From assembly GCA_021531755.1 (NCBI GenBank), contig JADYUK010000007.1:1-64000 (forward strand): a DNA stretch of 64,000 nucleotides, read 5' to 3'. Under the pieces are notes generated by a model. It did not search any database and was not told the DNA's origin. It saw only the letters and a program-made list of their open reading frames with translations. This document shows positions 4,469 through 55,590 of this stretch, piece after piece. Position 1 is the stretch's first letter, and every line of letters begins with the position of its first letter. The translations under genes were made by a program, and so were the position numbers. The stretch comes from Hoylesella loescheii. GTDB lineage: Bacteria; Bacteroidota; Bacteroidia; Bacteroidales; Bacteroidaceae.

Positions 4469-4849
4469 TTACTTCTTAGCCTTAGGACGCTTTGCGCCAT
4501 ACTTTGAACGGCGCTGTGTGCGGTTTGCTACGCCGGCAGTATCAAGTGTGCCACGTACGATGTGATAACGTACACCTGGGAGGTCCTTAACACGACCGCC
4601 ACGTACGAGAACGATAGAGTGCTCCTGAAGGTTGTGGCCCTCTCCTGGGATGTAAGAGTTAACCTCCTTCTGGTTTGTCAAACGTACACGGGCAACCTTA
4701 CGCATTGCCGAGTTAGGCTTCTTAGGTGTTGTGGTATAGACACGAACACAAACGCCACGACGCTGAGGACATGAGTCCAGAGCTGGCGACTTGCTCTTGT
4801 CAACAAGCACCTTTCTGCCTTTTCTTACTAATTGCTGAATTGTAGGCAT
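4469..4849 (-). CDS. rpsL: 30S ribosomal protein S12
   Basis: 126 residues from [13 protein letters not shown]; the ORF extension to 4906 is discarded. It contains [13 protein letters not shown] and [13 protein letters not shown]. The lysines where streptomycin-resistance substitutions normally fall (the PKKP loop and the RVKDLPG loop) are wild type, so this allele looks streptomycin-sensitive. The Asp of KDLPGV is the usual methylthiolation site. S12 acts in the decoding centre. It is the first gene of the operon, with a TACCTTTG promoter box 84 bp upstream. Confidence 0.97.
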
Positions 4850-7480: not shown

Positions 7481-7555
7481 ACTGAATGAGCGCGTCATCC
7501 GTACCGAATGAGGGGCTCACTGGCACTGGATGACGGGCTTATAAGTGCTGGATGG
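7481..7555 (+). repeat. 22-bp tandem array, family A (copy 1)
   Basis: Three units begin at 7481, 7503 and 7525 (period 22) followed by a partial terminal unit at 7547 ending GGATGGGGAAA. Unit form: ACTGAATG, a G-rich centre, then CTCAT and GGT. It lies between the convergent manC and lipoprotein genes. Confidence 0.8.
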
Positions 7556-7653
7556 GGAAACGGGCTCAGAACTCTGCCTCGTCAGCGCCAGCGGGAGGCT
7601 GCATTCACAGCTGTCCGACGACATGGCAACAAGAAGCCCTTCCCGAACCAGAC

Positions 7654-7785
7654 AATGAGTCCATACCCCAGGAGCAATAAGGATATACCCCAGGAATAAT
7701 GAGTCCATACCCCGGGAACAATGAGGATATAGGGCTGGAAAAATGAGGCTATAACCTAAAAACAACAAGGTTATGGCGCTGGAAA
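7654..7785 (+). repeat. 22-bp tandem array, family B
   Basis: Six contiguous 22-bp units start at 7654, 7676, 7698, 7720, 7742 and 7764. The consensus begins AATGAGgaTATaCCCCaGG and degrades towards the right. The sequence differs from family A but has the same period and starts with the same AATGA word. Confidence 0.8.
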
Positions 7786-16607: not shown

Positions 16608-16612
16608 CAGTG

Positions 16613-16674
16613 TGTTTTTCATAGTATTAGATTTAAGGTTAACAAAGATTGGGACAGAGCGCTGTCCCATTTTT
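16613..16674 (+). ncRNA. Putative small RNA, about 60 nt
   Basis: Between a consensus promoter (16576-16607) and a hairpin-plus-T-tract terminator lies a 38-nt single-stranded-looking segment containing TTTTTCATAGTATTAG and AAGGTTAACAAAGATT. The terminator is GGGACAG-AGCG-CTGTCCC (16651-16668) followed by ATTTTTCGTTTT. There is no ORF. I have an unverified impression that this core recurs in Bacteroidales genomes. An alternative is a short leader or attenuator for the GH3 gene, 530 bp downstream. Confidence 0.6.
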
Positions 16675-17013
16675 CGTTTTAAAAGGCTTGGAAAAACACA
16701 AAACAACCACATTTTTACCGTGATTGCTGATATATTTATACCATATAAATGATGTAAATCAAATATCATATTCTGAAAAATAATCCTCAAAGTTTGCAAA
16801 AAATAGATTGTTACGCTTGTCAAGCCATATGCAAAGTTAGTAAAAAACTACTATTGTAAGCAAATATCACGGTATTTTTTGCATCTGCGAAACTATTTCC
16901 CGACTTTCTTTCAACATATTCAAATGTGCTCACGAATAGGCACGACAGGGGCACTCTCCTTCCATGCCGAATCCAGATAATAACCGGTGGAGGCTAATAA
17001 ATACAAGCATAAA
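16675..17013. other. AT-rich intergenic region before the GH3 gene
   Basis: Non-coding, AT-rich; no ORF with family resemblance, no strong hairpin. Confidence 0.4.
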
Positions 17014-27363: not shown

Positions 27364-27568
27364 CATGTTTTCTGCATCAATCCCAAGAACACTATCAATG
27401 GCAGCGCGTATTTTAACATAGTATAACTAAACGGAGCATCGTAATTACTCAGTCTTTACCGCACAATCACTTAGTAATATCCTCCTGAGGGAGTTTTCCC
27501 ATAGAGAATCTCCTGCGTGCTGTACTGGGCTTACACAGGGTTCACATGATTATGGTTTCCCATTTATT

Positions 27569-27617
27569 ACTGTCCGGTAAAACTTTATGATAAGTTGTGA
27601 TTCATTTACCGGACAGT
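27569..27617. repeat. Inverted-repeat element, ACTGTCC family (copy 3, best copy)
   Basis: A perfect 13-bp inverted repeat ACTGTCCGGTAAA (27569-27581) and TTTACCGGACAGT (27605-27617) with a 23-nt centre. It ends 9 bp before the 22-bp array at 27627, in the divergent space between the HU-like gene and xylB. Confidence 0.8.
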
Positions 27618-27626
27618 TAAATTTCC

Positions 27627-27714
27627 CATTCAGTACCTATGAGCCGCTCATTCAATACCAATGACATGCTCATTCAGTACCAATGACACGCTCATTCAGT
27701 ACCAATGACACAAC
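27627..27714 (-). repeat. 22-bp tandem array, family A (copy 2)
   Basis: Units start at 27627, 27649, 27671 and 27693 (plus-strand reading CATTCAGTACCAATGACACG and two more bases). On the minus strand this is ACTGAATGAGCG...TCATTGGT, and the array ends with GAATGGGAAA at 27630-27621. Confidence 0.85.
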
Positions 27715-27881
27715 CACACATAAGCCCCTGATACATAGCATATTCCATCACGGACTACCAGACAGCCGCCCCTTCCCGTCCACATCCGCCCTACCCCATG
27801 CCGACCGCACAGGGCGAAACTTTCCAGACAGGCAAGAAAAAGTAAATCCATCCTTTTCTTGTCAGTCTCAAATATTATTGT

Positions 27882-35890: not shown

Positions 35891-36040
35891 GATTGAGAGA
35901 AGCAGAGGAAAAGGGAGAGAGAAAGCAAGGAGAAGGGAGAGAGAAAGCAAGGAAAAGGGTGAGAGAAAGCGAGGAGAAGATTAAGAGAAGGCTGTAAAAA
36001 GGAGAAAGAATGCGAGGAGAAGGGAGAAAGGCAAGAACAG
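35891..36040 (+). repeat. Purine-rich tandem array, 22-bp period
   Basis: Units start at 35891, 35913, 35935, 35957, 35979, 36001 (21 bp) and 36022 (partial). The best pair are GGGAGAGAGAAAGCAAGGAG plus AA and the next copy, differing at one base. Almost all plus-strand bases are purines. It lies in the spacer before the Nudix regulator. Confidence 0.85.
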
Positions 36041-37294: not shown

Positions 37295-37617
37295 TTACAG
37301 TCCGGAAAACACTCTAAAGACCTTGACACAGTGGTGGAGTAATGATTATCCAGGCCTCTTCCAGCACACAAACATGACTGTCCGATAATTGTGCCTGCTA
37401 TACAGTATAACGGAAGAACGAGTAATAAAGCATAGAACGTTGTCCACAGCACAGAAGGGGCGCGACAGTTAGAAACTGATGGAGCAGCGAGGCTAATGGC
37501 CCCGTATCTTCGAGACTTAACTCTTGGACATGCTCTTAGCAATAGATTCCAATATTGCTACATCGGCTGTCTGCTAAAACCTATCGTTTCTCATCCTAAC
37601 GTTTTTACAGGACAGCA
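37295..37617. repeat. Long ACTGTCC-family element (copy 4, degenerate)
   Basis: The left end 37295-37334 (TTACAGTCCGGAAAACACTC...) matches copy 2 at 33 of 40 positions. The right end near 37602-37617 (TTTTTACAGGACAGC) is an imperfect inverted copy. About 320 bp lie between with no ORF of note. A 22-bp array begins 16 bp further right. Confidence 0.55.
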
Positions 37618-37632
37618 TATTCTGCAATAGTT

Positions 37633-37730
37633 ACTGAATGGCGGGCTCATTGGTACTGAATGGCGGGCTCATTGGTACTGAATGACGGGCCCATTGGTAC
37701 TAAATGGCGGGTTCATTGGTACTGAATGGG
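37633..37730 (+). repeat. 22-bp tandem array, family A (copy 3, best copy)
   Basis: Units start at 37633, 37655, 37677, 37699 and a truncated last unit at 37721. The first two full units are identical (ACTGAATGGCGGGCTCATTG plus GT). The last unit ends GAATGGGAAAA. Confidence 0.92.
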
Positions 37731-55196: not shown

Positions 55197-55526
55197 TCAT
55201 TTCGTCTGTCTATGATGTCTTGGTTATATGGGACAATCATTGAATAGAATAAGATATCATTTCTGTGGGGTAAAACAAGGGATGAATGACGATAAGTGTA
55301 TTGCTATTCTGTTTACAAGAGAGTGTCAGGAGGTTGAAAACACTGTATTATAACTACATAAGGTGTCGTCATCACGAAAAGGCAGCGAAAGATGAGTTTT
55401 AAGGCATAAACAAGACCAGCAAGAGGGTATGATTGGGCTTTTCTTGATGTTCGAACACAGCAGTGGGACTTTTCCACCACCCTATTGATAACAAAATAAG
55501 CTGTCTGAGATACTGTCTGAGAAGCC

Positions 55527-55590
55527 CATTCAGTAGCTCTCAGCTCCTCATTCAGTACCTTTCAGAGCCTCATCCAGTACCTTTTACGAA
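55527..55590 (-). repeat. 22-bp tandem array, family A (copy 4)
   Basis: Units begin at 55527, 55549 and 55571. Read on the minus strand they are ACTG(G/A)ATGAGG... and the array ends GAATGGGCTTC. The last bases before it, near 55501-55522, hold two TGTCTGAGA copies. Confidence 0.75.

Follow-up and report, generated by a model that had tools for sequence, protein, structure and literature searches.

The window analysed here is a stretch of 64,000 nucleotides from the genome of Hoylesella loescheii (3.30 Mb, 72 contigs), in which it forms part of contig C70. Four of its intergenic spaces, that at 37633-37730 among them, contain tandem arrays of a common 22-bp unit, and two further arrays with the same period consist of other sequence:

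37633..37730, plus strand: four-unit 22-bp array and a fifth half-unit (TRF 4.5 copies, period 22)
27613..27714, minus strand: array of three strong 22-bp units with weaker edges, part of a type A element with leader (TRF 3.9 copies)
27721..27731, minus strand: IHF-like leader TCAGGGGCTTA (TCARNNNNTTR), upstream of the 27613 array in array orientation, gap 20 nt
7481..7555, plus strand: diverged array of three 22-bp units and a half-unit (unit scores 27.0, 22.3, 24.3)
55513..55590, minus strand: degenerate array of three 22-bp units (TRF 2.9 copies; unit scores 18.2, 18.9, 20.2)
7652..7785, plus strand: adjacent period-22 array (TRF) with a different, AATGAGTCCATACCCCAGGAAC-like unit and alternating 44-bp higher order, a candidate relative of the 22-bp family
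35895..36027, no strand assigned: period-22/44 tandem array (TRF) of unrelated purine-rich sequence

The spacing of exactly 22 bp from unit start to unit start that had been counted in the initial annotation was borne out at all four loci of the family, and according to our own ORF model all four are indeed situated between genes, in a convergent (7481), a divergent (27613) and two co-directional gaps (37633 and 55513). The units are contiguous and without spacers, ruling out CRISPR as had already been stated. With profile scores of 30.3, 30.3, 30.6 and 21.5 bits for its four units and 9.6 for the fifth, the array at 37633-37730 is strong, as is that at 27627-27714 (29.4, 27.6, 29.5 and 11.9 over 27613..27714), the weak last unit of which overlaps an IS-like end. 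The array at 7481-7555 is moderate and that at 55513-55590 degenerate, its units scoring 18-20 bits compared with up to 31.9 and keeping the CAT core in none of three cases. The two arrays of other sequence (7652-7785 and 35895-36027) had been overlooked in the initial annotation.

Several other elements reside close to the arrays or elsewhere in the window. The 27613 array is directly adjoined by the inverted pair ACTGTCCGGTAAA / TTTACCGGACAGT at 27541-27625, probably the ends of a small IS remnant, and similar strings are present near the arrays of loci L043 and L019. Adjoining the 37633 array, a stretch of about 110 bp (37503-37622) recurs at about 75% identity in L042, L051 and, in part, L056. 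It sits 0.2-0.5 kb from arrays, as another repeat family that shares their intergenic gaps. Rfam matches in the window comprise RF04319 FopS at 16612-16678 on the plus strand (71.2 bits), a family of paralogous Bacteroidetes sRNAs, and two close group II intron domains (RF02001 and RF01998) at 690-987 on the minus strand.

The family is dispersed over the complete genome. When up to two mismatches are allowed, 48 matches to the unit ACTGAATGN5CTCATTGGT are found in 3.3 Mb as opposed to none for its backward control, and a two-unit skeleton has 103 as opposed to 5. Occurrence by chance in this one place, named in the initial annotation as what would overturn its reading, is therefore dismissed. 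Profile searches yielded at least 43 arrays, i.e., 48 clusters minus five weak single units that were dropped (L026:7451, L045:3979, L055:7123, L056:103 and window:43658); the weak places C2:56379, C66:11875, C11:491825 and C70:83210 and the chance-like ones C14:20822 and C33:38877 are outside this number. Three units are found in 22 of the 43 arrays, two in ten, a single one in four and four to six in seven, such that 39 arrays have two to six. All but one (42/43) are wholly intergenic, while 72% of the DNA examined is coding and 28% non-coding by our own codon-usage ORF model; a genome-wide count and a test for intergenic bias had been proposed as checks at the outset. The 40 arrays lying between two called genes occupy 16 divergent, 8 convergent and 16 co-directional gaps. 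A function common to the neighbours was not apparent, as none of the 209 Pfam families detected in the 84 nearest proteins occurs in more than three of them, and the idea of a regulon or a cargo was dropped for want of a common family. Rfam gave no match at gathering score over any array in the window and in 36 of the 40 loci (all except L045 and L056-L058). Loci L044 and L055 have 728 bp in common at 95% identity. Among the matches listed for contig C11, eight array loci fall between 261 and 460 kb and the initial 257 kb contain none, possibly reflecting a replication-linked bias.

Each unit is composed of two inverted half-sites. AATGA and TCATT cores thus alternate along the array with their centres 10 and 12 bp apart, about one helical turn. 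Conservation among the 109 unique units is heterogeneous between positions (chi2 414, 21 df): positions 6-8 (ATG) and 17 (A) are conserved to 97-100%, positions 10-13 and 19-20 to 49-57%. The conservation of the core is partly circular because the units were gathered by similarity and A6-G8 and A17 were already contained in the seed. Position 9, for which the seed specified no base, always carries a purine (109 of 109 units), and position 15, a T in the seed, is occupied by T in 78 units, by C in 31 and by a purine in none. Two overlapping dyads had been described in the initial annotation, the first of which, AATG-N7-CATT, is right. The second is CATT-N7-AATG and is centred one base away from the GTAC on which it had been placed; GTAC itself is variable (T22 in 75 and A1 in 98 of the 109 unique units). 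Folding of single strands, also suggested there, is not backed by comparison. The variable inner dyad pairs are without pairing covariation, with Watson-Crick combinations in 65 units for pair 9-15 and 48 for pair 10-14 versus 69.0 and 53.8 in shuffles; the outer pair 5-19 is slightly more often Watson-Crick than in shuffles (53 versus 46.6, p 0.054). RNAalifold on 11 elements found compensatory change in none of 11 predicted pairs and an unfavourable covariation term. With neither approach in its favour, RNA structure was dropped as a candidate. The lack of base-pair covariation argues for protein-binding sites over RNA hairpins, and we read the units as sites for a putative protein that would sit on one face of the helix.

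A leader accompanies part of the arrays at a fixed distance. The motif TCARNNNNTTR has 15 matches in the 43 upstream flanks versus 1.0 in shuffles and none downstream, and 12 of the 15 are separated from the array by 19-21 nt, including that of the 27613 array in the window. At this fixed place the leader is missing in 31 of the 43 arrays, and 28 are without any match. The members of type A were chosen by eye; the motif count, taken over the full set of 43 arrays, is free of such bias. The motif fits the IHF consensus WATCAANNNNTTR, which is that of E. coli; HU/IHF proteins of Bacteroidales presumably have a similar specificity. In type A elements, a weak tail with the consensus ATATCA follows the array, and the third unit has CCNAT instead of the usual CTCAT in 8 of 11 aligned copies. 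Because they share this detail and the tail, type A elements must have spread as units of about 150 bp. Flanks fall into several unrelated subtypes, namely type A, a TTGACACC-type and that of L021, L028 and L030, which have 100-117 bp in common, and copying as a unit is therefore evident for some arrays only. Five arrays follow 11-bp AGGTGTCAAGG repeats, and one of these, L058, lies upstream of a VapE-like gene. Some copies of a longer motif are near-palindromic (TTTRTAAC..GTTAYAAA, with overlapping matches on both strands). The sequence TTTGTAACNNATTGATNNTCA, considered as a common terminal inverted repeat (TIR), occurs with up to two mismatches in seven of eight genomes, yet it has four matches in the window's genome (G000) compared with one for the control and was thus not taken as the end of the element there. 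Its inner part overlaps the leader. The elements in G000 are too decayed for their ends to be defined.

The strict consensus is present in one of 60 genomes of the genus, i.e., the window's own, and has no match in a search of genome contigs covering 84,980 species with one genome each. There, the exact 2.5-unit skeleton was found in 69 stretches, 59 of them in Prevotellaceae bacterium UBA1726 (G284), nine in four other Prevotella/Prevotellaceae MAGs and one in a MAG labelled Bacteroides sp. A sequence-only model of type A, for which nine candidates per genome were scored, detected 22 of 299 genomes at E <= 0.01, with multiple copies in G284 (at least 9), G145 (7) and G261 (7). The loci read in these three keep the 22-bp period and the AATGA-N5-TCATT skeleton while the other letters differ. 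As a pattern, the skeleton occurs in 38 of 398 genomes of the genus, ten of which have more than ten matches (G284 134, G000 48, G145 33, G111 30, G261 28, G228 18, G210 15, G158 14, G160 11 and G225 11); in G160, 10 listed of the 11 matches belong to one repetitive locus. The backward control is non-zero in 23 of the 398 genomes, with a maximum of 8 in G314 and 7 in G260, and does not exceed 1 in any of the ten high genomes. Since it reaches 8, the one to six matches in each of the other 28 genomes are no evidence for the family. A family-wide search, with the pattern in 19 and the control in 17 of 301 genomes, does not support spread beyond the genus; G429 (51 matches) and G000 (48) alone are well clear of the control maximum of 6.

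Similar leaders, and a lattice of identical layout written in different letters, are present in UBA1726 and G429, two further species of the genus. The 40 arrays read in UBA1726 cover a narrow range of 6-11 half-sites. Their 80 flanks contain 13 leader matches versus 2.48 in shuffles, and seven of the 13 are separated from the first core by 12, 22 or 34 nt, lattice gaps that were named after the counts had been seen. A separate tail subtype occurs at L204, L209, L211 and L092, where the perfect 16-bp palindrome AATTCGCTAGCGAATT and one more half-site come after the array. In the linker TCATT-X7-AATGA of UBA1726, the triplets flanking the cores are mostly TGA, TTA or TGG (268/329), and the same triplet on both sides is avoided (12/142 versus 33.9 expected, 0 of 20,000 permutations). 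An anti-palindrome idea was not built on this, as the CC/GG bias of the 5-bp spacer resembles strand polarity in our reading. The commonest 7-bp linker, TAACTGA (22/142), also makes up direct repeats that are described, in the part of the source available, as head-to-tail heptamers in Beggiatoaceae and five Bacteroidetes (PMC4679880). We took this as coincidence, given the head-to-tail arrangement of the known repeats and the occurrence of the heptamer in 0 of 109 G000 units.

In G429, whose family has the best-defined boundaries, 32 places match an element of about 275 bp, mostly in part, and the ends cluster at two points. The consensus leader TGTAAC..TTGATA..ACAA....TTA is similar to that of G000; TCARNNNNTTR is exact in three of six copies read and does not fit the other three. 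By eye, the ends TGTAATAAAAATTCA...TAAATTAACA are at best weakly inverted. The underlying alignment matched 17 of 25 loci (plus strand only, two in the wrong register being kept) and covers both ends in seven, and in these seven copies from one species a target-site duplication was not detected (edge match 1.86 for own pairs versus 1.83 for swapped ones, p 0.58). No leader was seen by eye in the loci read in G145 or G261. The transposase Y1_Tnp (PF01797) exceeds its cut-off in four of eight array-bearing genomes, once in G000 (23.7 bits, cut-off 23), and is without a match in G429 and G261, both 99% complete, G225 and G228; identity with REP/RAYT systems was dropped because of this inconsistency.

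The period of 22 bp is not peculiar to the family. In 220 kb taken from six other genomes, TRF reported six period-22 and two period-44 rows, which make up seven separate arrays; among periods longer than 12 bp, 22 is the most frequent there. No array of either period was reported in 200 kb of E. coli K-12. The six genomes were not picked for arrays, and two of them, G016 and G405, do have pattern matches. In view of these seven arrays, the period recurs with unrelated sequences, as it does at 7652-7785 and 35895-36027 in the window. Nine copies of another 22-bp unit, GGGAGGCAATAGGATTGATGGT, are located at L040 4327-4526, about 250 bp from a family array, and adjoin a TPP riboswitch at 4669-4764.

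In the reading that we propose, to which we give about even chances, each array forms the core of a non-coding element dispersed through intergenic DNA, and this element provides an ordered protein-binding lattice with an IHF/HU-like bend beside some copies. Past copying would have spread the element over the genome, and at least one subtype would have travelled as leader, array and tail together, a unit of about 150 bp. Its array would act as a ruler of alternately facing AATGA/TCATT half-sites about one helical turn apart, along which copies of a sequence-specific, probably dimeric protein would line up next to each other on the same face of the helix. At the arrays with a TCARNNNNTTR leader (at least 12 of 43), a protein of the IHF/HU family may bend the DNA next to the array, and bend and array could then give rise to a compact complex of DNA and protein similar to those of E. 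coli BIMEs or datA. The likeliest roles would be to organise the chromosome locally or to insulate neighbouring genes from each other, and/or to be recognised by the agent that copies the element. Protein and IHF/HU binding, function and the mechanism of copying are what we infer here from sequence alone. The copies are too old to reveal the mode of movement. Because related species have versions of their own, the evenly spaced sites give the impression of landing strips for a protein that were duplicated across the chromosome. A nucleoid-protein site array had been among the suggestions of the initial annotation and fits best, considering that the alternating half-sites are helically phased, that paired bases do not covary and that the IHF-like leader keeps a fixed spacing; the binding protein itself is putative.

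The main rival, which we hold to be unlikely, is a MITE proper, that is a non-autonomous element moved in trans by an IS transposase and carrying a functionless minisatellite as cargo, as has been proposed for BrickBuilt. Numerous intergenic copies, arrays framed by leader and tail, and species-specific amplification would be expected of such an element, and IS-like ends (ACTGTCCGGTAAA, in our reading) near arrays, a DDE transposase gene near the L058 array and the presence of CTTTGTAACTCATTGATWATCA on opposite strands at two UBA1726 arrays point in the same direction. However, the G429 ends are not clear inverted repeats, own and swapped edges match about equally well in the seven copies, the leader is one-sided in G000 (15 versus 0) and inert cargo would not predict position-specific conservation. 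The transposon-derived satellite of the initial annotation is supported in part: in one subtype the leader travelled with the array, but no TIR, target-site duplication or transposase could be tied to the arrays. The combination of an IHF-like site and phased tandem sites is also the plan of plasmid origins, datA and phage attP and, along with the near-palindrome in some copies of the longer motif, would suit iteron- or att-like sites, in which tandem 22-bp sites for an initiator or integrase arm sites next to an IHF site were dispersed as titration sites or integration relics. Tens of chromosomal copies and the absence of initiator and integrase families among the 25 commonest neighbour families render this improbable.

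Action at the RNA level, through hairpins in read-through transcripts or small RNAs (a terminator, a stabiliser or BrickBuilt-like transcripts), is a reading to which we attach very little weight. Each unit is foldable as AATGAG-N3-CTCATT, the arrays at L027, L028 and L042 lie just downstream of hairpins that look terminator-like by eye, and pair 5-19 is slightly over-paired, but the predicted pairs are not compensatory, the inner pairs do not covary, the loci scanned gave no Rfam match and the orientations of adjacent genes are mixed. Just as improbable in our view are neutral minisatellites that grew through slippage during replication where genomes tend to duplicate 22-bp stretches, with the likeness between loci owed to chance or old duplication. 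The commonness of period 22 elsewhere and the unrelated 22-bp arrays in the window agree with slippage, which does not explain one motif at more than 40 loci, the narrow array size, the alternating half-sites and the fixed-distance leader.

Should the arrays bind one protein in phase, as we favour, each genome would offer dozens of natural, mappable sites, and spacing and letters could be compared across species, giving a handle on nucleoid organisation in Bacteroidales. Should they be mobile, one element plan would recur across the genus with species-specific letters. In either case they call for practical caution in assembly, repeat-based typing and sRNA annotation of Prevotella. A further-reaching and rather doubtful extension is that there is a Prevotella-wide class of nucleoprotein sites, each with an IHF/HU-bent leader and a one-face half-site lattice and present in tens to more than 100 copies per genome, in which letters diverge while lattice, core and leader stay, and that the network of arrays may evolve in concert with a rapidly changing DNA-binding protein, the two together organising or segregating the chromosomes of Bacteroidales.

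In the open-access literature, as far as its texts were available, we found no account of Prevotella arrays in which half-sites alternate within a 22-bp unit. BrickBuilt, PINSR and the BIMEs of E. coli come closest among known systems. The new class of intergenic repeat envisaged in the initial annotation is upheld as a large dispersed family without Rfam match over the loci scanned, and qualified by such similar elements already known from Bacteroidales. BrickBuilt, a MITE of Porphyromonas gingivalis, consists of 23-nt tandem units with leader and tail, is always intergenic (Klein et al., 2015, PMC4596501) and has the IS5-type TIR GAGACCTTTGCA (PMC4596501, Table 2). Going by the available part of that description, it resembles our family as a dispersed intergenic family of near-equal unit length (23 nt) without spacers, found in few species and next to genes of mixed function, and also in the succession of leader, tandem units and tail, which in G000 is seen in type A elements, with the leader in 12-15 of 43 arrays (PMC4596501). 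It differs in that units are 22 bp with alternating half-sites here and 35 of 43 arrays have two to four of them (range 1-6) as compared with 1-22.8 in BrickBuilt (PMC4596501), and in its IS5-like TIRs, none being clear in G429, a comparison by description and not by sequence (PMC4596501). PINSR is a 188-bp intergenic repeat of P. intermedia with 177 and 184 copies and no TIRs (2015, PMC4755523). Like our family, it is a highly amplified, non-coding intergenic element of Prevotella that belongs to one clade, and its lack of TIRs recalls the G429 ends, which are at best weakly inverted (PMC4755523); unlike it, PINSR is a 188-bp element for which the accessible portion of the paper mentions no 22-bp array, and the G429 element of about 275 bp was compared with it by description only (PMC4755523).

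REP/BIME elements, which are combined with IHF sites in BIME-1 of E. coli (PMC2817692), lie outside genes as mosaics in which palindromic units face alternate ways and are accompanied by an IHF site, have a suggested part in chromosome organisation (PMC2817692) and are in these respects similar to the arrays. Their units are, however, palindromes of 20-40 bp (PMC3733652) and linked to RAYT transposases, whereas here half-sites follow each other about every 11 bp without covariation and Y1_Tnp has no match in four of eight array-bearing genomes. Hairpins of the REP/BIME type with compensatory pairing were not found in the G000 units or the 11 elements. In the accessible account, datA and DARS of E. 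coli are single loci with DnaA boxes and without phased 22-bp arrays (PMC10380432); the plan they have in common with the arrays is an intergenic IHF site whose spacing is important and which is placed beside a cluster of protein boxes (PMC10380432).
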